From NCBI RefSeq assembly GCF_946479975.1, contig NZ_CAMLIX010000074.1, positions 1-19,816 of the forward strand: a DNA stretch of 19,816 bases, given 5' to 3'. The DNA comes from an uncultured Flavobacterium sp. Lineage in GTDB: Bacteria > Bacteroidota > Bacteroidia > Flavobacteriales > Flavobacteriaceae. The position numbers were made by a program, and so were the translations under genes. The notes under the pieces are model-generated. The model was not told where the DNA came from. It searched no databases and was given only the letters and a program-made list of their open reading frames with translations. Shown here in pieces: positions 1,566-17,891 of this stretch (within the stretch, counting starts at the first letter, position 1; the number at the start of each line of letters is the position of its first letter).

Positions 1566-1928
1566 ATGAAAAAGATAATGAGATTAAGTTTAGTATGCGC
1601 AGTACTTTTAACTGGAATGAGTACTTACGCAATTGATGGAAATGAAGCTTTAAATCTTCATGTTTTAAAAGCAAATGGCAAGGTTATTGCTTTTGGTATT
1701 AATCAACTTCAAAAAGCAGTTATCAGTATTTACGATACAAATGGTAATTTAATTTACACTGAAAATGCTTCTGGAAAAAACGGAATTTTAAGAACTTTCA
1801 GTTTAGAAGAGTTTCCACAAGGAGCTTACGTTTTAGAAGTTGCTGATAATTTTAAAAAAGTAAAATACGATATTACTGTAAATTCAAATAATTCAGTTTT
1901 ATCTTCAAAAGGAACTACTTCTAACTAA
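1566..1928 (+). CDS. Small secreted beta-sandwich-like protein A (DUF3244 / sorting-domain-like)
   Basis: A 120-residue protein and the first of four tandem paralogues. Residues 1-22 are a signal peptide (MKKIMRLSLV... ending STYA before IDG), so the protein is probably exported. The mature part is one small domain whose order, an NLHVLKANGK strand, an ISIYDTNGNLIYTE strand pair, an FSLEEFPQGAYVLEV turn and a KYDITV last strand, resembles DUF3244 and the type IX secretion C-terminal domain. Here that fold makes up the whole protein with no cargo. About two thirds of the first 105 residues match paralogue B by eye. The C-terminal tail is shorter than in B and C. Function is unknown. It is preceded by the shared operator and followed by its own 3' UTR and terminator. 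Confidence 0.85.
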   Translation: MKKIMRLSLVCAVLLTGMSTYAIDGNEALNLHVLKANGKVIAFGINQLQKAVISIYDTNGNLIYTENASGKNGILRTFSLEEFPQGAYVLEVADNFKKVKYDITVNSNNSVLSSKGTTSN

Positions 1929-1949
1929 GAAGTAAATATTATAAAGGTT

Positions 1950-2082
1950 AAGTGCTACTTCACGGCACTTAAAATTTTTATACTCTAATACAGTATAAAA
2001 AGTGAGGTTAGATAGTTAGTAAGTTAAAAACTTTCAAAAGTTTTAAAAACAGCTCTTTGTGGTTACTGAGCTGTTTTTTTTT
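1950..2082 (+). terminator. Structured 3' UTR and terminator of gene A
   Basis: Three hairpins lie in series: AAGTGC/GCACTT (1950-1970), TTTTTATACT/AGTATAAAAA (1975-2001), and the terminator AAAACAGCTC/GAGCTGTTTT (2046-2077) with a following T-run. From 1974 to about 2101 the sequence matches that after gene B with one substitution and two small indels. Confidence 0.85.
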
Positions 2083-2104
2083 GCTCTATACTTTTTTGTT
2101 TACC

Positions 2105-2270
2105 GTAACGTTTTTATCGCAAAGAGCGCAAAGATTTTTTAATCAAATATTAAATATAAACGCAAAGTTCGCAAAGCTACATCCATATCGCTTTGCGAAC
2201 TTTTTATTAATTTACTAAAAAAGACCTAGTGTGCTTTGCGTAAACCTTTATGCTCTTTGCGGTAAAATCA
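2105..2270. repeat. Nested GCAAAG-type intergenic repeat, copy 1
   Basis: The outer arms GCAAAGAGC (2119-2127) and GCTCTTTGC (2252-2260) enclose a perfect 14-bp inner stem, AAAGTTCGCAAAGC (2164-2177) with its complement at 2190-2203. The unit recurs between genes B and C and in degraded form near 16667-16765. No coding sequence is supported here; 2271-2383 also shows no gene. Confidence 0.75.
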
Positions 2271-2383
2271 ACATTACTACATTCCTACATTTTTTAAAGA
2301 AATCATTACCTCATTGTTAATTGAAAATTATGAAAAACGTTGAAAAATAAAAGGCGTTTAAGCCAAAATGGTAAATATAATTC

Positions 2384-2477
2384 AAATTTTAACCTATAAC
2401 GGTTTCGTAAATGAGAATATAGCATAGAAATAGGAAAATATAGTTGTTTAATACTACTTACATCCGAAGTAATTTAG
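2384..2477 (+). promoter_or_regulatory. Operator and promoter of secreted protein B (copy 3)
   Basis: Same layout as copy 2: core AACCTATAACGGTTTCG (2391-2407), half-sites GAGAATATAG (2413-2422) and GAAAATATAG (2434-2443) exactly 21 bp apart and matching at 9 of 10 positions, TTG (2444-2446), 23-bp spacer, and -7 box TAATTTAG (2470-2477). The -7 box departs from TAnnTTTG at one fixed position, the same departure as in copy 4. Confidence 0.7.
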
Positions 2478-2516
2478 CATCAGAGAATTAGAACTATTAA
2501 TTTAAAACTAAATACC

Positions 2517-2921
2517 ATGAAAAAGATTATCAGAATGAGTTTAGTAGCTGCGTTGCTTTTCACAGGAATAAGCACTTACGCAATTGATGGCACTGCAGAG
2601 TTTAATCTTCACGTTATAAAAGCTAACGGCAAATTAATTAGTTTTGGTCTTAACCAAACTCAGAAAGCAAATTTGACAATTTATGCTAAAGATGGATCTG
2701 TGATCTATTCTGAAAAAGCTTCTGGAAAAGATGGCATCTTAAGAACGTTCAGCCTGGAAGAATTTCCAGAAGGAATTTATTTTTTAGAAATTGAAGACAA
2801 TACAAAAAAAGCAAAATACGAAATCTCTGTAACTGATACTGTTACTGTTTTATCTCAAAAAGCAGTTTCTTCGGTTTACAAATCAGATTCTGCTAAAAAT
2901 ACTAGCGTTGCAGTACGCTAA
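2517..2921 (+). CDS. Small secreted beta-sandwich-like protein B
   Basis: A 134-residue paralogue of A and, more closely, of C. The signal peptide (residues 1-22) is nearly the same as C's at the DNA level. The mature domain keeps IDG, NLHVIKANGK, the GKDGILRTFSLEEFP core and a KYEISV final strand. It carries a longer C-terminal tail ending SSVYKSDSAKNTSVAVR, shared with C and absent from A; the tail is Ser/Lys-rich and has no cysteine, so no lipid or disulphide anchor is suggested. The start at 2517 is fixed by conservation of MKKI and by the upstream promoter. As for A, the role is unknown; a cell-surface or periplasmic protein made under AraC control is my inference. Confidence 0.85.
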   Translation: MKKIIRMSLVAALLFTGISTYAIDGTAEFNLHVIKANGKLISFGLNQTQKANLTIYAKDGSVIYSEKASGKDGILRTFSLEEFPEGIYFLEIEDNTKKAKYEISVTDTVTVLSQKAVSSVYKSDSAKNTSVAVR

Positions 2922-2926
2922 AAAAG

Positions 2927-3034
2927 TTTTTATACTATACAGTATAAAAAGTGAGGTTAGATAGTTAGTAAGTTAAAAAACTTTCAAAAGTTTTAAAAAC
3001 AGCTCTTTGTGGTTACTGAGCTGTTTTTTTTTGC
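2927..3034 (+). terminator. Structured 3' UTR and terminator of gene B
   Basis: Holds the hairpin TTTTTATACT/AGTATAAAAA, here with a 4-nt loop, then the terminator AAAACAGCTC/GAGCTGTTTT (2996-3027) with a T-run. It is almost the same as the gene A 3' UTR and unlike that of gene C, although B's coding sequence is closer to C's. Confidence 0.85.
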
Positions 3035-3049
3035 TCTATATTTTTTTGT

Positions 3050-3410
3050 TTAATCGTAAAGTTTTACCGCAAAGAGCACAAAGCTATATTTAGACGTAAA
3101 GTTTTTTTACCGCAAAGAGCGCAAAGATTTTTTAATTTAAGATTACGCGTATAAAACGCAAAGTTCGCAAAGCTTTACCAACATAGCTTTGCGAACTTTT
3201 TTATTCTTTAAATTTTACTCGAAAATACTTAGCGCACTTTGCGTAAACCTTTGCGTTCTTTGCGTTAAAATCTTCTTTAAAAAACTTAAAGTTCTAAAAA
3301 GTTATATTTTCACGGCTTTGCGAACTTTTTTAATCTATAAAACTTACTTCAAAAAACTTAGCGTGCTTTGCGTAAACCTTTGCGTTCTCTGCGGTTAAAT
3401 ATTTTTCATT
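3050..3410. repeat. Nested GCAAAG-type intergenic repeat, expanded copy 2
   Basis: A longer version of the 2105-2270 repeat. The 15-bp stem AAAGTTCGCAAAGCT (3160-3174) pairs with 3185-3199. ACCGCAAAGAGC motifs flank it on the left, and two successive complementary motifs of the type GCGTAAACCTTTGCGTTC lie on the right (about 3235-3272 and 3360-3395), indicating internal partial duplication. A 69-codon open frame across it is a product of the repeats, not a gene. Confidence 0.7.
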
Positions 3411-3503
3411 TTCGTAAATAAATTCTTAACCCATTGTAAAGTTAAAATCAATAAAAAGCTTAAACAATAATAAGCGAATTAACAAAAACATTAAAAATAA
3501 TTC

Positions 3504-3596
3504 AGTTTTAACCTATAACGGTTTCGTAAATGAGAATATAGCATAGAAATTGGAAAATACAGTTGTCTTTTACCTTGTAATACATAAGTAATTTAG
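3504..3596 (+). promoter_or_regulatory. Operator and promoter of secreted protein C (copy 4)
   Basis: Core AACCTATAACGGTTTCG (3510-3526), half-sites GAGAATATAG (3532-3541) and GAAAATACAG (3553-3562) at a 21-bp period, TTG (3563-3565), 23-bp spacer, and -7 box TAATTTAG (3589-3596). Spacing is identical to copies 2 and 3 throughout. Confidence 0.7.
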
Positions 3597-3636
3597 CATC
3601 AGAGAATTAGAACTAATAATTTAAAAACTAAGTACC

Positions 3637-4038
3637 ATGAAAAAGATTGCAAAATTGAGTTTAGTAGCAGCGTTGCTTTTCACAGGAATAAGCACTTACG
3701 CAATTGATGGAAATGGAGAATTCAATCTTCATGTATTAAAAGCTAATGGAAAACTGATCACTTTCGCACTTAACAAATTACAGAAAGCCAATTTAGCTAT
3801 TTATGATAAAGACGGAACTTTAATTTATTCTGAAGTCGCTTCTGGCAAAGAAGGAATTTTAAGAACTTTTAATTTAGAACAATTTCCTGAGGGAACGTAT
3901 ATATTAGAAGTAGAAGATACTATGAAAAAATCAAAATACGAAATCACAATTGACGATCATGCGTCATTATCAAGAAGTGCAGTTTCGTCTGTTTACAAAT
4001 CAGGATTTGGTAAAAGTACAAGTGTTGCTGCACGTTAA
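3637..4038 (+). CDS. Small secreted beta-sandwich-like protein C
   Basis: A 133-residue third paralogue. Signal peptide residues 1-22 (ending ISTYA before IDG); mature domain with FNLHVLKANGKLITF, NLAIYDKDGTLIYSE, GILRTFNLEQFPEGTYILEVED and KYEITI strands; C-terminal tail SSVYKSGFGKSTSVAAR like that of B. It has its own copy of the shared operator. Unlike A and B its 3' UTR has diverged, although it keeps the same terminator stem. No catalytic motif is visible. A binding or structural surface role is possible but unproven. Confidence 0.85.
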   Translation: MKKIAKLSLVAALLFTGISTYAIDGNGEFNLHVLKANGKLITFALNKLQKANLAIYDKDGTLIYSEVASGKEGILRTFNLEQFPEGTYILEVEDTMKKSKYEITIDDHASLSRSAVSSVYKSGFGKSTSVAAR

Positions 4039-4045
4039 AAATTTA

Positions 4046-4143
4046 TACTTTTTAAAGGTATAAAAGAAGGTTAAAAAAAATAACTTTTATTTATTGTTTG
4101 AAGAAAAGAACAGCTCTTGATGACTCAACGAGCTGTTTTTTTT
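4046..4143 (+). terminator. 3' UTR and terminator of gene C
   Basis: AACAGCTC (4109-4116) pairs with GAGCTGTT (4130-4137), followed by a T-run. The stem matches those after A and B but the loop differs. An upstream TTTATAC/GTATAAA hairpin near 4043-4066 appears to be the diverged counterpart of the TTTTTATACT hairpin of A and B. Confidence 0.8.
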
Positions 4144-4362
4144 ACCCCAAAATTAAATGTAAACTTTACACTAAACTTGTTTCTGAAAAGATATTCTTAT
4201 AAATACAACTTGTTGATTTTTAAGCTTTAAAAAAATATTAGAAAAAAAATAAAAAATCCAATCCAGAACTCCAGTAAATACGTACATAGTTCAAACAAAA
4301 TGCAGAAATAGTTTTAATTCAACAACTTAAGTGTTTAAAAAACCGAATTTATTGCTAAAAAT

Positions 4363-4370
4363 TAAATTTG
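4363..4370 (+). promoter_or_regulatory. -7 box of gene D
   Basis: TAAATTTG is a full TAnnTTTG match about 50 nt before the Met at 4421. It lies inside the longer open frame that begins at the GTG at 4331, which argues against that upstream start. No copy of the 30-bp block or of the GARAATAYAG pair is seen in 4144-4362, and nothing else recognisable is there. Confidence 0.55.
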
Positions 4371-4420
4371 TATTTGTAGTTTTACGCGTTCCACATTTAG
4401 TAATTAACATTAAAAAAAAC

Positions 4421-4807
4421 ATGACAAAATTTACCAAAGCAGGTTTAGTTGCTGCCTTTTTTTTAGCGACTGTTTTTACCTATGCCATTGATGGAAAAGG
4501 TGATTACGTTCTAAACATTAAAACAGGAAACGGAAAAGTAGTTAGCTTTACTTTAGACACTGTTGAAAATTCATCTTTCTCAATTTATGATGAAAGCCAC
4601 AATTTACTTTATGCAGGAAACGCTGCAGCAAACAATTTAGAAGTTTCTAAAACAATTAGTTTAGAGAGTTTTCCAGCAGGAACTTACGTTCTTGAAGTGA
4701 AAGCAAACGACAAAATTTCGAAACACGAGATTAAAGTTGCTGCAAAAAAAGTAAAAGCAGTAAAGTTAGACGAAACTGTTAATCAGAGTCCGTCTTTCCG
4801 TCGCTAA
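4421..4807 (+). CDS. Small secreted beta-sandwich-like protein D, divergent paralogue
   Basis: A 128-residue protein with the same plan as A-C: signal peptide (MTKFTKAGLVAAFFLATVFTYA before IDG), a YVLNIKTGNGKVVSF strand, FSIYDESHNLLYAGN, ISLESFPAGTYVLEV and a KHEIKV last strand. It is much more distant than A-C are from each other, and its tail is lysine-rich (AAKKVKAVK) and ends SPSFRR. The frame is open from a GTG at 4331, but that stretch precedes the -7 box and does not look like a protein, so 4421 is chosen. It lacks the operator shared by A-C and is probably regulated differently. Confidence 0.8.
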   Translation: MTKFTKAGLVAAFFLATVFTYAIDGKGDYVLNIKTGNGKVVSFTLDTVENSSFSIYDESHNLLYAGNAAANNLEVSKTISLESFPAGTYVLEVKANDKISKHEIKVAAKKVKAVKLDETVNQSPSFRR

Positions 4808-4871: not shown

Positions 4872-4916
4872 ATTTGACTCTTTTTAATAGATATTAAAGA
4901 TAAATTCAATTATCAC

Positions 4917-5500
4917 TATATTGTCATTTCGACGTAAGGAGAAATCTCCACAAGAAACTCTATAAAGATTGACGACAAACTATGCGTTGGATGTATTCAT
5001 CCCTGCAAAAAACCTTTGCGCTGAATGGATTAAAATCCATCCCTACAATATGATTCGTTCCTTCGGAACTTTTATAAAACTAGTTCAGAAAAAACCCCAA
5101 TATTCTCATTTCGACTGAGGAGAAATCTCCGTAAACAACTCTACAAAGATTGGCGACAAACTATGCGTTGAATGGATTAAAATCCATCCCTACAATATGG
5201 TTCGTTCCTTCGGAACTTTTATGAAATTCTTATGAGAAATTATCACAATATTGTCATTTCGACAAAGGAGAAATCTTCGCAAGAAACTCTACAAAGATTG
5301 ACGACAAACTATGCGTTGAATGGATTAAAATCCATCCCTACAATATGGTTCGTTCCTTCGGAACTTTTTATAGAACTCGTTAAAGAACCCACAATCTTGT
5401 CATTTCGACGGAGGAGAAATCTTCGCGAGAAACTCTGCAAAGATTGACGACATTCTATACGGAGCTATTTACGGAGACTTCTCCTGACGTCGAAATAACA
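4917..5500. repeat. Array of palindrome-containing intergenic repeats (four direct, one inverted)
   Basis: Units begin with a TCATTTCGAC ... GGAGAAATCT motif at about 4922, 5105, 5253 and 5399. They continue through AAAGATTGACGACAAAC, the palindrome ATGGATTAAAATCCAT (7-bp arms) and the hairpin GTTCCTTCGGAAC. Units 2 and 3 are about 148 bp and highly similar. Unit 1 has an insertion carrying a second, degraded palindrome. Unit 4 is truncated and faces an inverted copy of the leading motif at 5473-5500. I see no gene in 4872-5544; a 71-codon frame across units 3-4 is repeat-derived. This looks like a REP-like family. Confidence 0.75.
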
Positions 5501-5604: not shown

Positions 5605-8600
5605 TTACATATTCCTTCTATACTGCCCACCAACCTCAAACAACGCCGAAGTAATCTGCCCTAAAGAGCAAACTTTTGTAGCTTCCATTAAATAATCGAA
5701 TAAATTTTCGTTTTTAATTGCGGCTTCTTGCAGTTTGTTTAAATGCTCGTTTACTTTTGCTTCGTGGAAATTATGCAGGTTGTCCAGCATTGTAATCTGG
5801 TATTGCTTTTCTTCTTCTGTGGCACGAATTACCTCAGCTGGAATTACCGTTGGCGAACCTTTTGAACTCAAGAAAGTATTTACACCCACAATTGGGAAAT
5901 CTCCGTTGTGTTTTAAAGTTTCATAATACAAACTTTCTTCCTGAATTTTAGAACGCTGGTACATCGTTTCCATAGCACCAAGAACGCCGCCTCTTTCTGT
6001 GATTCTGTCGAATTCTTGTAAAACGGCAGCTTCAACTAAATCGGTTAATTCTTCGATGATGAATGAACCTTGAATTGGGTTTTCGTTTTTGGCTAAACCT
6101 AATTCTTTATTAATAATCAGCTGAATCGCCATGGCACGACGAACTGACTCTTCTGTTGGAGTTGTAATCGCTTCGTCGTAAGCGTTGGTGTGCAATGAAT
6201 TACAGTTATCGTAAATCGCATACAAAGCTTGTAATGTTGTTCTAATATCGTTGAAATCTATTTCCTGCGCGTGCAACGAACGTCCGGATGTCTGAATATG
6301 ATATTTCAGCATTTGTGCTCTTTCGTTGGCTCCGTATTTCAATTTCATCGCTTTTGCCCAAATTTTACGCGCCACACGTCCAATAACTGAATATTCTGGA
6401 TCTACTCCGTTGGAGAAGAAGAACGATAAGTTTGGTCCAAAATCGTTGATGTTCATGCCACGGCTCAAATAATATTCCACGTAAGTGAAACCATTTGAAA
6501 GTGTAAAGGCTAATTGCGTAATTGGATTTGCTCCCGCCTCGGCAATATGATATCCTGAAATCGAAACCGAATAAAAATTACGAACGTTTTTGGTAATAAA
6601 ATATTCCTGAACGTCACCCATTAATCGTAACGCAAATTCGGTTGAGAAAATACAGGTATTTTGTGCCTGATCTTCTTTTAAAATATCAGCCTGAACCGTT
6701 CCACGGACTTGAGATAATGTTTTTACTTTGATTTCATTATAAACCTCCAAAGGCAAAACCTGATCTCCGGTAACGCCCAAAAGCATTAATCCCAAACCGT
6801 TGTTTCCTGCTGGAAGTTCGCCTTGGTATTTCGGTCTTTCGATTCCTTTTTCCTTATATATATTGTTGATTTTAGCTTCAACTTCATTTTCTAAATCATT
6901 TGCTTTGATGTAAATCTCGCATTGCTGATCGATTGCCGCATTCATAAAGAATCCTAAAAGCATTGGCGCAGGCCCATTGATCGTCATACTTACAGATGTC
7001 AAAGCATGAACCAAATCAAAACCTGAATATAGCTTTTTGGCATCGTCCAAACAACAAATCGAAACTCCGGCATTTCCGATTTTGCCGTAAATATCCGGAC
7101 GCACATCTGGATCATTTCCGTATAAAGTTACACTATCAAAAGCCGTAGAAAGACGTTTTGCAGGCATTCCCGAACTCACATAATGAAAACGTTTATTGGT
7201 TCTTTCCGGTCCGCCCTCGCCCGCAAACATTCTCGAAGGATCTTCGCCCTCACGTTTAAACGGATACAATCCCGAAGCAAACGGAAATTCTCCTGGAACA
7301 TTCTCTTGTAAATTCCAACGCAGGATATCGCCCCACGCTTCATATTTAGGTAAAGCAATTTTCGGAATTTGTAAATGTGATAAACTTTCAGAATGTGTCG
7401 CGATTTTGATTTCTTTATCACGAACTTTAAACGAGTAAACTGGATTTTTGTATTTCGCTACTTTATCAGCCCAACTCAGAATAATTTCCCAATTGTATGG
7501 ATCTAAATCCATTTTTACTTTATCAAATTGATTTAGTAAAAGGTTTAAGAAGATTCTGTTTTCATTAAGTCCTTCGACTTCATTCCCGATGACAGTCGAA
7601 TCATCGATTCCAGCTTTTGTAATTTGTGGCAATTTACCAGAAACAGATTCTATAGTTTTGAAGATTCCGTATAATTTTTGTGCTACTTTTTGCTGCGAAA
7701 TTGCCGTTTCATCATAACTTCTGTTATTCTCTGCAATTTCAGATAAATAACGTGTTCGGTGTGGCGGAATCACAAATATTTTCTCGCTCATTTCTTTGGT
7801 GATTTCAAAAGTCGATTTCAAATCTGAATCGGTTTTTTCTACCACTTTATCCATGATTGCTTTGTAAAGCGTGTTCATTCCAGGATCGTTAAACTGCGAA
7901 GCAATGGTTCCGAAAACCGGCATTTCATCTGGATTTTTATCCCAAAGATTATGATTGCGCTGGTATTGTTTTTTTACATCGCGAATTGCATCAAGCGCAC
8001 CACGTTTATCAAATTTGTTTAAAGCCACTAAATCGGCAAAATCAAGCATGTCGATTTTCTCCAATTGTGTGGCAGCACCAAATTCTGGTGTCATTACATA
8101 TAAGGATACATCAGAATGATCCATAATCTCCGTATCCGATTGACCAATTCCTGAAGTTTCCAAAATAATCAAATCGTATTTGGCCGCTTTTAAAACCTGA
8201 ATTGCTTCGGCTACATATTTAGATAAAGCCAAATTCGACTGACGTGTCGCCAGCGAACGCATATAAACTCTCGGATTATTTATGGCATTCATACGGATTC
8301 TGTCTCCTAAAAGCGCGCCTCCAGTTTTTCTCTTTGAAGGATCTACAGAAATCAATCCGATTGTTTTTTCGGGGAAATCAATTAAGAAACGGCGAACCAA
8401 TTCGTCAACCAAAGAAGATTTTCCTGCTCCTCCTGTTCCTGTAATTCCTAAAACTGGAATTTTAGAAGTTGAATTTATTTCATGAATTTTATCAAAAACT
8501 GGTTTTGCAATTTCAGGAAAGTTTTCTGCTGCAGAAATCAAACGTGCAATTGCTGTTGGCACTTTATTTTCGATATGATCAATTTCTCCTTTCAATTGAT

Positions 8601-9045
8601 CTCCAATAGGAAAATCAGATTGTTCTACCAAATCATTAATCATTCCTTGAAGTCCTAAAGAACGACCATCGTCTGGAGAATAAATTCTGGTAATACCATA
8701 TTCATGTAATTCTGAAATTTCACTTGGCAAAATTACACCACCTCCGCCTCCGAAGATTTTAATGTGACCCGCTCCTTTTTCGCGAAGCAAATCATACATA
8801 TATTTAAAGTATTCATTGTGTCCGCCTTGATAAGAAGTCATTGCAATTGCATTTGCATCTTCTTGAATAGCGGTGTTTACCACTTCTTCGACACTTCGGT
8901 CGTGACCAAGGTGAATTACCTCAACTCCCGTTGACTGGATAATGCGGCGCATAATATTGATGGCAGCATCGTGTCCGTCAAAAAGTGAAGCAGCAGTAAC
9001 AATTCTTACTTTATTTTTAGGATTATATGGTTTTTGTTGTTCCAT
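5605..9045 (-). CDS. icmF: Fused acyl-CoA mutase with G-protein chaperone (IcmF type, coenzyme B12-dependent)
   Basis: This 1146-residue fusion carries out B12-radical carbon-skeleton rearrangement of an acyl-CoA (isobutyryl-CoA to butyryl-CoA in characterised relatives). Residues 10-140 are the B12-binding domain (DGHDAA from 23, SYQGG from 71, GGGG from 99). Residues 195-415 are the MeaB-like GTPase (Walker A GTGGAGKS 203-210, NKFD 343-346). Residues ~560-1146 are the mutase barrel ([47 protein letters not shown]). Aligned by eye with methylmalonyl-CoA mutase and IcmF as I remember them, the two specificity positions are Tyr594 and Gln795: Gln is IcmF-like, whereas Tyr is typical of methylmalonyl-CoA mutase. 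An insertion near 710-780 seems longer than in proteobacterial IcmF. The gene is monocistronic, divergent from the L,D-transpeptidase gene. Exact substrate uncertain. Confidence 0.93.
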
Positions 9046-14602: not shown

Positions 14603-16096
14603 CTATCTCGCTCTAATCGCTAATCTTGGATCATCAAAGTTATCAACTTCATCCATTGTCATTCCAAGAGCATTTGCTACACCTTCTCCATAAGCTGGAT
14701 CGGCTTTGAAACAGTTTCTAATATGACGAACCTGAATAAATTTCTGCGCTCCTCCTACTTGTCCCGCTGTATTTTTAAACAAAAGCTGTTTTTTCTCCTC
14801 TGTCAATAAACGGAATAAAAGTCCAGGTTGTGTAAAATAATCACTGTCGTCTTCTCTAAAATTGTGCGCATACGCATCACCGTAAATTGCCAATGGCGGT
14901 TCTTTTGTTTCCGGCTGATCCTGCCATTCACCAAAACTATTTGGTTCATAGTGTTTTCTTCCTCCAAAATTACCATCTACACGCATTGCGCCGTCTCTGT
15001 GGAAACTGTTGTACGGACATCTTGAAGAGTTTACTGGAATTTGATAGTTGTTTACTCCTAAACGGTAGCGATGAGCATCTCCGTAAGAGAACAAACGTCC
15101 TTGAAGCATTTTATCTGGTGAGAAACCAATTCCTGGAACTACGTGTGCTGGATTAAAAGCGGCTTGCTCTACTTCTGCAAAATAATTTTCAGGGTTTTTA
15201 TTTAGTTCGAATTCTCCAACTGGAATTAGCGGAAAATCTCCTTTTAACCAAACTTTAGTCAAATCGAATGGGTGGAAACGATATGTTTTTGCTTGTTCTT
15301 CTGACATGATCTGAACAAACATTTTCCATTTTGGGAAATTACCTTCTTCAATCGCATCAAATAAATCTCTTTGATGACTTTCTCTATCTCTTCCAACTAA
15401 AGAAGCTGCTTCTTCATCTGAAAGATTCTCAATTCCTTGCTGTGAAACCAAGTGGAATTTTACCCAATGTCTTTCGTTTTGTGAATTGATAAAACTAAAA
15501 GTATGACTTCCAAATCCGTGCATTTCTCTATACGATCTCGGAATTCCTCTATCGCTCATTACAATAGTAACCTGATGTAATGCCTCTGGTAATAATGTCC
15601 AAAAATCCCAATTGTTATCAGCACTTCTCAAATTGGTTTTTGGATCACGTTTTACGGCATGGTTTAGGTCAGGAAATTTCATTGGATCACGGAAAAAGAA
15701 TACTGGAGTATTATTTCCAACCAAATCCCAATTTCCTTCATTTGTATAAAATTTCATGGCAAAACCACGGATATCTCTTTCCGCATCAGCAGCACCTCTT
15801 TCTCCTGCAACAGTAGAAAAACGTACAAACATTTCGGTTTTCTTACCAATTTCCGAAAACAAGTCGGCTTTAGAATATTTGGTAATATCATGTGTCACTG
15901 TAAAAGTCCCGTATGCGCCCGAACCCTTAGCATGCATTCTTCTTTCTGGAATAACTTCGCGATCAAAATGTGCCATCTTTTCGAGGAACCAAAAATCTTG
16001 TAATAATACAGGTCCGCGAGGCCCAGCTGTCTGAATGTTCTGATTATCAGGAACTGGTGCTCCCGTTACAGTTGTTAATTTTTTCTTTTCTTCCAT
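14603..16096 (-). CDS. katA: Monofunctional haem catalase, small-subunit type
   Basis: A 497-residue cytoplasmic enzyme that breaks hydrogen peroxide down to water and oxygen. The distal haem pocket shows His55 ([16 protein letters not shown]) and Asn128 ([15 protein letters not shown]). The proximal haem ligand is Tyr338 in [14 protein letters not shown]. The length and the [13 protein letters not shown] start fit clade-3, NADPH-binding catalases. The start at 16096 is supported by a consensus -7 box TATATTTG on the minus strand at 16120-16127, giving a leader of about 18 nt; no clear TTG -33 box is found. The gene is alone on its strand. The tandem small RNA-like modules begin about 140 bp upstream on the other strand. 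Confidence 0.96.
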
Positions 16097-16233: not shown

Positions 16234-16386
16234 CTTAACGTATGTCCAACAAAGTAATAACAAAACCTTAACAGCGTAACGTCGATTTATGTCTGACCTT
16301 TGTAATGTAATAAACTGGTTATTTATTATTTTGGTTTTGGTTAGTTAAATGATGCCGGCGTCTTCGAGATGCCGGCATTCTTTTTT
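16234..16386 (+). ncRNA. Putative small RNA module, copy 1 (promoter, RNA, terminator)
   Basis: A -7-like GACCTTTG (16295-16302) would start a transcript near 16309. No sensible reading frame follows. The predicted ~78-nt RNA opens with a hairpin AATAAA/TTTATT (16309-16314 with 16322-16327), continues with a U/G-rich single strand (UUUUGGUUUUGG), and ends in a strong terminator, ATGCCGGC (16352-16359) with GCCGGCAT (16371-16378) extended by TCT/AGA, then a T-run. The stretch 16245-16386 recurs 230 bp downstream with 10 substitutions in 142 positions and no indels; the central 45 nt (16306-16350) are unchanged. I recognise no known RNA family. Confidence 0.55.
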
Positions 16387-16463
16387 GAATTAAATTCCAA
16401 TAAAAAATCCCAAATTTCAATTTCCTTCGAAAACAGTTAACTGCAAAGAATGGACTGTTTAAC

Positions 16464-16616
16464 ATTAACTTACTTCCAACAAAGTAATAACAAGATCTTA
16501 ACAGCATAACGTCGATTTATATCTGATCTTTGTACTGTAATAAACTGGTTATTTATTATTTTGGTTTTGGTTAGTTAAATAATGCCGACGTCTTTAAGAT
16601 GCCGGCATTCTTTTTT
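16464..16616 (+). ncRNA. Putative small RNA module, copy 2
   Basis: Tandem copy of the preceding module. The -7-like box is GATCTTTG (16525-16532), the AATAAA/TTTATT hairpin and U/G-rich segment are identical, and the terminator stem is 16582-16589 with 16601-16608, carrying one A-C mismatch, followed by a T-run. Nearly all differences from copy 1 are transitions. The 88 bp between the modules (16387-16474) show only weak similarity to the sequence before copy 1 and hold no gene. Confidence 0.55.
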
Positions 16617-16666
16617 GGTATCAATTGGAGTTTGTTTAGGTTTCAAGTTTTACTTTGAACATAATT

Positions 16667-16765
16667 TAACCGCAAAGTTCGCTAGGTGTTTTTTAGTAAT
16701 ACTTAATATTAAACGCAAAGTTCGCAAAGCTTTGTAAACAATTAGTTTAGCCAACTTTGCGGTTA
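16667..16765. repeat. GCAAAG-type intergenic inverted repeat, copy 3
   Basis: The perfect outer arms TAACCGCAAAGTT (16667-16679) and AACTTTGCGGTTA (16753-16765) enclose a central CGCAAAGTTCGCAAAGCTTTG. This is the same family as the repeats at 2105-2270 and 3050-3410. Confidence 0.7.
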
Positions 16766-16784
16766 GATAAAACACTTTCCCCAT

Positions 16785-16877: not shown

Positions 16878-17891
16878 ATGATGGATACAATAAAAAAAAT
16901 AAAATTAGGAAATCAGGGATTAGTTGTTCCGAATATTGGTTTAGGCTGCATGGGAATGACACAAATTGCAGGAAATGATATTTATGGCAAAGCCGATGAA
17001 GCTGAATCGATAAGAACAATTCACCGCTCGCTAGAATTGGGAGGTAATTTTCTTGATACTGCAGATTTGTACGGACCTTTACATAATGAAAGACTGATTG
17101 CAAAAGCCATTAAAGGAAATCGAAACGCTTACAGTATTGCAACGAAATTTGGTTATGAAATCGACGATAACGAAGAACTGACTTGGAAGTTTAACGGGAA
17201 AAAGGATTATGTAAAAAAAGCAGTAGAACGATCTCTTAAAAATTTAGGAACAGATTATATCGACTTGTATTATTTACACCGATTAGATCCCAACACTCCA
17301 ATTGAAGAAACTGTTGGTGCAATGGCAGCGTTAGTAAAGGAAGGAAAAGTGGGTTATATCGGTCTTTCTGAAGTTTCGTCTGAGACGATTAGAAAAGCGC
17401 ACAATATTCATCCTTTAACTGCTGTACAAACTGAATATTCTCTTTTTGAAAGAAGTGTTGAAGAAGATGGGATTTTAAAAACATTAGAAGAATTAAATAT
17501 TGGTTTCGTTGCTTATTCTCCACTCGGAAGAGGTTTTATTTCAGGAGAAATTCAACATCCTGAGGATTTTGCAGAAAATGATTTCAGAAGAACTATTCCG
17601 CGTTTTCAAGGCGAGCAGTTTTACAAAAACATCGAACTTCTAAAAGAAATAAATGGTATTGCTGCCGAAAGAAATATTACAGCTTCACAATTGGCATTGG
17701 CATGGATTACCTCTAAAGGTTTTTTAGCAATTCCAGGCACAAAACGTGTCAAATATCTCCAAGATAATATCGCTGCAGCCCAACTGGTTTTAACTGCCGA
17801 AGAACTAAACAGACTAGAAAGCATTATTCCGTTAGGTACTATTACAGGCGATCGATATGATGCATCTGGAATGGCAAGCGTTAATTTATAA
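16878..17891 (+). CDS. Aldo/keto reductase family oxidoreductase
   Basis: A 337-residue NADPH-dependent reductase with a TIM-barrel fold that would reduce aldehydes or ketones in the cytoplasm. The catalytic tetrad is visible: Asp60 and Tyr65 (NFLDTADLYGP), Lys90 (IATKFGYE) and His134 (DLYYLHRLDP). The C-terminal cofactor region AIPGTKRVKYLQDNIAAA is typical, as is the opening LGNQGLVVPNIGLGCMGM. It resembles the YakC/AKR13-like group; the true substrate cannot be read from sequence. Two adjacent Met codons (16878 and 16881) are possible starts. The AraC gene that follows on the same strand, and the 21-bp direct repeat upstream, suggest substrate-induced expression. Confidence 0.93.
   Translation: MMDTIKKIKLGNQGLVVPNIGLGCMGMTQIAGNDIYGKADEAESIRTIHRSLELGGNFLDTADLYGPLHNERLIAKAIKGNRNAYSIATKFGYEIDDNEELTWKFNGKKDYVKKAVERSLKNLGTDYIDLYYLHRLDPNTPIEETVGAMAALVKEGKVGYIGLSEVSSETIRKAHNIHPLTAVQTEYSLFERSVEEDGILKTLEELNIGFVAYSPLGRGFISGEIQHPEDFAENDFRRTIPRFQGEQFYKNIELLKEINGIAAERNITASQLALAWITSKGFLAIPGTKRVKYLQDNIAAAQLVLTAEELNRLESIIPLGTITGDRYDASGMASVNL

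Follow-up and report, generated by a model that had tools for sequence, protein, structure and literature searches.

A tandemly duplicated small RNA of Flavobacterium with a candidate Pho box and complementarity to SusC gene starts

To our knowledge, few small RNAs (sRNAs) of the Bacteroidota outside Bacteroides have a proposed circuit. Two described sRNAs lie nearest to the one considered here, FopS in function and Rfp18 by taxon. In the available text of their description, FopS and GibS of Bacteroides thetaiotaomicron are short, occur as paralogues, carry their seed in single-stranded form, and end in an intrinsic terminator (PMC11697453). Our RNA is like them in these features, and pairing near the start codons of SusC-type mRNAs, shown for FopS in the same text, is predicted for ours (PMC11697453). 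As far as that text goes, the two differ in copy number (12 to 15 copies of FopS per genome versus one to three tandem copies among the matches listed for ours), in layout (in FopS, the 5′ single strand is directly followed by the terminator, whereas ours has a 5′ hairpin before the seed), and in control (canonical promoters and bile-stress induction for FopS, a predicted Pho-type box for ours) (PMC11697453). By analogy, we would say that our RNA works like FopS, not that it is FopS, and we claim no kinship; an Rfam scan at E ≤ 10 listed no FopS family, if Rfam 15 has one. Rfp18 of F. psychrophilum, which we compared by description alone, is, like our RNA, a genus-conserved structured Flavobacterium sRNA, and in the accessible portion of its report its third stem-loop pairs with metalloprotease and adhesin mRNAs (PMC9723704).

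Our preferred reading of the locus, which we consider probable, is that of a PhoB-induced sRNA that represses SusC translation and is FopS-like in function; transcription, PhoB as the binder, and repression are the parts of it that we infer. The window, meaning the whole stretch of DNA analyzed, is 19,816 nucleotides (nt) from an uncultured Flavobacterium sp. (contig NZ_CAMLIX010000074.1), and its homologues likewise mark it as DNA of this genus. Between a catalase gene (14603 to 16096, − strand) and an aldo/keto reductase gene (16878 to 17891, + strand, identified by Pfam) lies a direct repeat, 16235 to 16396 and 16465 to 16626, with a length of 162 nt, an identity of 90%, and a spacing of 230. 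This recovers the two modules 230 bp apart that were reported in a preliminary description made from the sequence. Ungapped over the 162 positions, the copies differ by 17 substitutions; 10 of the 17 fall within 16245 to 16386, reproducing the earlier count of 10 over 142 positions, and none falls within 16306 to 16350, the 45-nt core that had been called frozen, which is identical in both copies. With an even scatter of the 17 changes, 4.8% of trials contained an unchanged stretch of 45 or longer, and hence the identity of the core in the window pair alone goes no further than suggestive; the strength comes from the comparison with other genomes.

In both copies, a block of short repeats and then a −7 box with TTTG precede a hairpin, which is followed by an unpaired stretch rich in U and G and lastly by the stem of the terminator. 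The hairpin and the U/G-rich stretch, already recognized as common to the modules, were found in the folds of both copies. Changes do occur in the promoter region, as had been stated, but the four-repeat 11-bp box within it, unmentioned earlier, is spared. No sense-strand open reading frame (ORF) of ≥60 amino acids (aa) spans the modules, which agrees with the earlier observation of no open frame; the ORF listing (≥60 aa) contains an antisense ORF of 62 aa at 16319 to 16507, which we took to be meaningless. The modules had also been said to match no RNA family, and indeed Rfam gave no family for them at the gathering score and nothing real at E ≤ 10, where the best hit, L20_leader, reached 29.4 bits against a cutoff of 58.7.

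The −7 box is placed at −12 to −5 in the available part of a published study (PMC9723704). In the window, the box is GACCTTTG in copy 1 (16295 to 16302, + strand) and GATCTTTG in copy 2 (16525 to 16532, + strand). The earlier identification of a −7-like box holds for the TTTG, but the TA of the TAnnTTTG consensus is missing (replaced in copy 1, making the box weak). From the published placement, the RNA would start at G16307 and G16537, where the conserved block begins, 2 nt upstream of the starts near 16309 and 16539 that had been suggested. With the start set by the box and the end by the terminator, each copy is predicted to encode an sRNA of about 80 nt with the same core (16307 to 16386 and 16537 to 16616, both on the + strand). 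Folding of copy 1 gives a 5′ hairpin, GUAAUAAA-CUGGUUA-UUUAUUAU (16307 to 16329, + strand), in which seven of the eight pairs have both-side changes among relatives. The single-stranded segment between hairpin and terminator is UUUUGGUUUUGGUUAGUU. Within it, the pairing and enrichment tests described below point to UUUUGGUUAGUU (16335 to 16346 in copy 1 and 16565 to 16576 in copy 2, + strand), the 3′ half of the U/G stretch, as the proposed seed, in place of the UUUUGGUUUUGG first put forward. The intrinsic terminator of copy 1 (16351 to 16386, + strand) consists of a stem at 16351 to 16379 followed by a T run; its sequence drifts and its pairing is kept. A strong terminator had been credited to each module. 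The stem folds in both, but the terminator scan flagged copy 1 only, the stem of copy 2 having one mismatch. Each module is, then, a stand-alone intergenic unit with its own intrinsic terminator and its own promoter, the latter recognized by sequence only.

An alternative fold of the 80-nt RNA is equally stable (−23.3 versus −23.2 kcal/mol, copy 1). In it, AACUGGUU around the loop masks GGUUAGUU, so that the seed is hidden; if this fold forms, it could tune the activity of the RNA.

A scan for a 20-mer of the core in one genome per species gave at least 120 stretches, most of them labeled Flavobacterium. The full core was present in 116 of 120 stretches among the matches listed, a near-invariance that is partly built in because the loci were found by the exact 20-mer; the 16 nt upstream of the 20-mer, which were not selected for, were present in 156 of 160 matches among those listed (L001 to L120). 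Tandem copies (two or more) occurred at 39 of the 116 loci, with spacings of 188 to 492 bp in the 38 loci measured, again among the matches listed. In 37 of 38 two-copy loci among these matches, first and second copies paired with the window's first and second better than when swapped, by a small mean margin (3.41 versus 3.24 of 4). The duplication looks old from this comparison, and, if it is, cores that stay identical between diverged flanks are the result of selection, or of conversion limited to the core, and not of recent copying.

A covariance search, proposed in the preliminary description, was made with a model built from the 33 copies of alignment A1 (an initial set of 33 rows less the incomplete L052 and L117, plus the two window copies). 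At E ≤ 1e-3, and with some weak matches lost to filters, it matched 236 of 398 genomes of the genus Flavobacterium, with one to three copies per genome among the matches listed. A sample of 299 genomes from the family gave 6 matches, of which one is the center genome, one (G068) is also in the genus sample, and four are weak, at 40 to 42 bits. The neighborhood recurs: upstream stands a purU-like gene, or a catalase or katG-like gene comes in between, and downstream there is an aldo/keto reductase gene, an alpha/beta-hydrolase-like gene, or BtuF-like plus pyrF-like genes (several of these names are our own reading of the sequence). A tie to the adjacent catalase was considered and dropped because other loci have a purU-like, a katG-like, or a different gene there.

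In 36 divergent copies (L167 to L200), the 5′ stem is often rebuilt in other letters, for example, GUUAUAAAU/AUUUAUAAU in L192 and AUGUGCAA/UUGCGCAU in L167. Over 43 rows, 98.2% of pair cells were standard and 12 of 13 pairs had changed on both sides, and neither value was equaled in 500 shuffles; the figure leans upward because the rows had been aligned to the model and 2 of the 43 are probable antisense chance matches. GGUUAGUU persists in most divergent copies, and variants of the seed occur in the genus, e.g., UUUAGGUUAGUU. Judged from these alignments, the modules form a real sRNA family selected as RNA, with its structure kept by compensation. Genus-wide conservation, compensatory changes, and a promoter region and terminator for each copy all support the original idea of a duplicated trans-acting sRNA, the trans action being suggested by complementarity.

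Three genomes of the family carry a related element (L167, L168, and L169, 1501 to about 1584), whose stem is rebuilt but which retains the CUGGUUA loop and GGUUAGUU; GC-rich sequence resembling a terminator comes next, and, by eye, no Pho-type box lies upstream. It is possibly a differently controlled relative.

PhoB and PhoP boxes, in their Escherichia coli and Bacillus subtilis forms, are direct repeats at an 11-bp period, and TTAACA resembles the PhoP half-site of B. subtilis. Like these, the window box consists of direct repeats at an 11-bp period upstream of a promoter; it differs in the number of its units, four, and in its position, 25 bp from a −7 box of the Bacteroidota type. In copy 1 (16235 to 16273, + strand), the half-sites of this predicted Pho box are of the TTAAC(A) type: TTAACG (16235 to 16240), CCAACA (16246 to 16251), ATAACA (16257 to 16262), and TTAACA (16268 to 16273). 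Copy 2 has four half-sites at the same 11-bp period (16465 to 16503, + strand). The three-repeat form AACA-TAACA-TTAACA was found at the exact 11-bp period in 151 of 155 homologous promoters; TAAC stood one period further upstream in all 71 distinct boxes, and the gap from box to TTTG was 25 nt in 150 of the 151 homologues.

In six genomes, the three-repeat pattern, with one mismatch allowed, matched 26 loci, and we inspected the neighboring genes at 12 of them. Nine of the 26 were the sRNA copies themselves. The non-sRNA matches that recurred lay before a DUF47-PHO4 operon (L219, L224, and L225; PhoU_div and PHO4 by Pfam) and in the gap that separates a response regulator gene (phoB) from a TonB-dependent receptor gene (L214, L218, and L226); the others examined were scattered. 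The protein at L209, a candidate phosphate porin, had no Pfam match and was not counted as a phosphate gene. From gene order and domains, we infer that L214 is the equivalent of Fjoh_0545 of F. johnsoniae, the TonB receptor whose gene neighbors phoB. In the available text of a study of Pi depletion in that species, the fold changes (apparently log2) of Fjoh_0545 and phoB were 8.02 and 3.06, and a phytase-linked TonB receptor and its operon were also Pi induced (PMC8115612).

The two recurring associations were examined in 20 of the 33 genomes that matched DUF47, most of the more divergent proteins being set aside, and in 20 of the 41 that matched phoB; the discovery genomes G001 to G003 were outside this sample. 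Upstream of the DUF47-PiT phosphate permease operon, TTAACA-N5-TTAACA with ≤1 mismatch was present in 17 of 20 genomes (L421 to L440), compared with 5 at period 6, 0 or 1 at periods 7 to 10 and 12 to 16, and an average of 0.1 in shuffles. In the region between phoB and the TonB receptor gene, allowing ≤2 mismatches, 19 of 20 genomes had the repeat at period 11, against 3 to 9 at other periods and an average of 5.2 (at most 9) in 40 shuffles; at ≤1 mismatch, it was found in 1 of 20, no better than at other periods. TTAACA-N5-TTAACA before DUF47-PiT is, on this comparison, a candidate for the Flavobacterium Pho box. The sRNA and the phosphate genes have a box type in common, and the 11-bp repeats of the window are likely, though not proved, to be a Pho box; the phytase promoters and the phoB region of genome G044 run contrary.

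OmpR-family regulators commonly bind 11-bp direct repeats, so the sRNA could be real and pair with SusC mRNAs while its box is read by another member of that family, or in response to another signal. Three of our results favor this. The promoter of the phytase-linked TonB receptor lacked the box in 12 of 12 genomes at ≤2 mismatches, the 26 pattern matches in the six genomes were no excess over the 29 obtained with the reversed pattern, and the phoB region of G044 failed the two-unit test, its middle unit being degenerate (19 of 21 regions have the repeat if it is added). Against it stands the recurrence of the box before the phosphate permease operon and, in looser form, beside phoB. The phytase and G044 results led us to lower slightly our confidence in the preferred reading and in its broader form (given below) and to raise slightly that in a different regulator, which we regard as unlikely yet to be taken seriously. 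When a profile of the box was run over 2.4 Mb of G044, the sRNA promoter alone stood out (28.4; the next score elsewhere was 16.5), and other periods yielded as many middling matches. Twelve genomes were searched for PhoX (PF05787), with no match. The phytase-linked promoters (L389 to L400) have a conserved block of their own around ATAACACTATGTTAAT and TTCGCA, which may be a looser repeat or another control.

On the target side, UUUUGGUUAGUU, which is unpaired, is complementary to AACTAACCAAAA-like sites that closely precede SusC start codons. In G044, where the SusC class was noticed post hoc, 5 of 18 TonB-receptor-like proteins ranked in the top 5% of predicted pairing, a number reached by none of 60 shuffled RNAs, and their mean rank was equaled by 2 of 60. 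Because the class had been seen after the fact, a held-out test was run on 20 SusC genes (TIGR04056 above the cutoff) from two other genomes, comprising 13 of 13 from G018 and the first 7 of 13 from G006, with none from G025; the start codon was taken as that of the longest ATG frame. Twelve of the 20 starts fell within the top 5% of 1,996 G044 gene starts (binomial, 2e-11). Their mean energy was −12.47, versus −8.39 ± 0.94 for shuffled RNAs, and 0 of 300 shuffles were as low. The result was less clear at a cutoff of ≤−14 kcal/mol, which 4 of 20 starts passed and where 2 of 300 shuffles also reached 4.

Among all 6-mers in the 45 nt before 32 SusC starts (12 of them the G044 discovery set), AACCAA was the most enriched, occurring before 16 of 32 versus 1.2 expected. 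The next were TAACCA, AACTAA, ATTAAC, TTAACC, and ACTAAC, all pieces of AACTAACCAAAA or AATTAACCAAAA; the site takes AACTAACCAA-like forms and the form AACTAACC. Among 30-nt windows, pairing was strongest in those that begin 40 and 30 nt ahead of the ATG and dropped on both sides. In these windows, 14 to 16 of 32 SusC starts paired at ≤−11, versus 18 to 27 of 400 random gene starts. A SusC gene that is apparently the same by its N terminus retains the site in three genomes (G044 1412435, L445, and L456). At 16 outgroup SusC starts, AACCAA was absent (0 of 16) and the energy was −8.13 versus −8.01, with 125 of 300 shuffles as low; the outgroups, which are defined by taxon (Bacteroides, Parabacteroides, Phocaeicola, and Cytophagales; 16 of 20 plasmid records listed from 133 that matched), also have a different base composition.

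There was no genome-wide excess. In 16 genomes, the exact 12-nt complement, CTAACCAAAACC, was rarer than its reversed control (49 versus 77), and at −14 kcal/mol the unpaired segment matched 46 of the 1,996 G044 gene starts, not clearly above the 28.8 ± 13.1 of 24 shuffles. What the RNA has is a conserved single-stranded seed complementary to a coherent class of targets. Among the best predicted partners in G044 (−16.9 kcal/mol) was the start of an 819-aa protein (C1:1313493, + strand) that, by our reading, looks like a membrane pyrophosphatase and is possibly a phosphate-related target.

The AACTAACCAA-like stretch before SusC genes might instead be a translation or transcription element of their own, matched by the sRNA through coincidence or serving another RNA. 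The evidence for pairing is complementarity throughout, the site lies at the presumed ribosome-binding position, and the missing genome-wide excess fits this explanation as well. We nevertheless judge it improbable, given that, among 300 shuffled RNAs of the same composition, none equaled the sRNA's average match to the held-out SusC starts, that few of the 400 random gene starts pair as strongly, that the site is missing at the 16 outgroup starts, and that GGUUAGUU persists in most divergent copies of the RNA itself.

It is equally doubtful, in our estimation, that the module is already catalogued as one of the 85 Rfp RNAs, be it Rfp18 or a different one. Rfp18 is, in the accessible text, structured and widely conserved in the genus, as would be expected in that case, but it pairs with metalloprotease mRNAs through a third stem-loop, whereas the RNA predicted here has two stem-loops and an unpaired seed (PMC9723704). 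Nor do we give much credence to a decoy role for the GGUU-rich single strand, in which it would bind a protein (in the manner of CsrB, or as a ligand of RbpB-type RRM proteins) and not act as an antisense seed. GGUU is repeated in the loop and linker of many copies, and the available text on RbpB has it binding single-stranded stretches of Bacteroides sRNAs (PMC11697453), but a decoy does not predict the enrichment of sites before SusC genes; protein binding and pairing are not mutually exclusive. That the repeat is a functionless mobile or palindromic element, as two near-identical copies in a window with other repeats might suggest, is scarcely credible in view of the recurrent neighborhood, the one to three copies per genome among the matches listed, and the compensated structure.

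The preferred reading, a PhoB-induced repressor of SusC translation, would work as follows. Each module would be a stand-alone gene for a trans-acting sRNA of about 80 nt. Phosphate starvation would activate the response regulator PhoB, which would bind the four TTAACA-type repeats, spaced at 11 bp and ending 25 bp upstream of the −7 TTTG, and turn on an otherwise weak promoter. The sRNA's UUUUGGUUAGUU would pair with AACUAACCAAAA- or AAUUAACCAAAA-like sites about 10 to 40 nt upstream of the start codons of SusC-type TonB-dependent transporters. Because the site coincides with the expected binding position of the 30S subunit, repression would be the likely outcome; ribosome entry would be blocked, and fewer sugar importers would be made while phosphate uptake systems are built. 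The identical tandem seeds would give a higher dosage. Sequence comparison shows the RNA family with its conserved structure, the box type common to phosphate loci, and the SusC complementarity; the circuit is weakest in what it says about which protein binds the box and in which direction regulation goes.

We lean, if only slightly, toward a broader form of this proposal, in which a genus-wide PhoB-driven sRNA would be a master brake on SusC transporters that couples phosphate starvation to carbohydrate uptake at the level of translation and that evolved independently of FopS. If the proposal is true, both ends, signal and targets, would be in hand for a conserved RNA in Flavobacterium, a phosphorus-scavenging, glycan-degrading genus, and SusC mRNAs would appear to be a recurrent hub of sRNA control across the phylum. 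The candidate Pho box would also give a sequence definition usable to map that regulon in Flavobacterium. Among the open-access papers listed, judged by their titles and the starts of their abstracts, we recognized none on a Flavobacterium Pho box or on a PhoB-controlled Bacteroidota sRNA.

Other features of the window are recorded here. Four tandem, related genes for small secreted proteins (120 to 158 aa) lie at 1566 to 4807; the first has Por_Secre_tail and DUF3244 matches just above the cutoff, and the first three have a 300-nt repeat in common at 72 to 74% identity. Beyond them, at 4915 to 5461, are four copies of a 72-nt intergenic repeat, 146 to 181 bp apart, three of which have 72 to 89% identity to the reference copy. 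Many short CGCAAAG repeats, direct and inverted, lie between genes at 2112 to 3408 and at 16664 to 16768, the latter just downstream of the sRNA copies. By Pfam, the gene at 5605 to 9045 encodes a fused B12-binding, MeaB-type GTPase, and methylmalonyl-CoA-mutase-like protein of 1,146 aa, which we take to be an IcmF-like arrangement.
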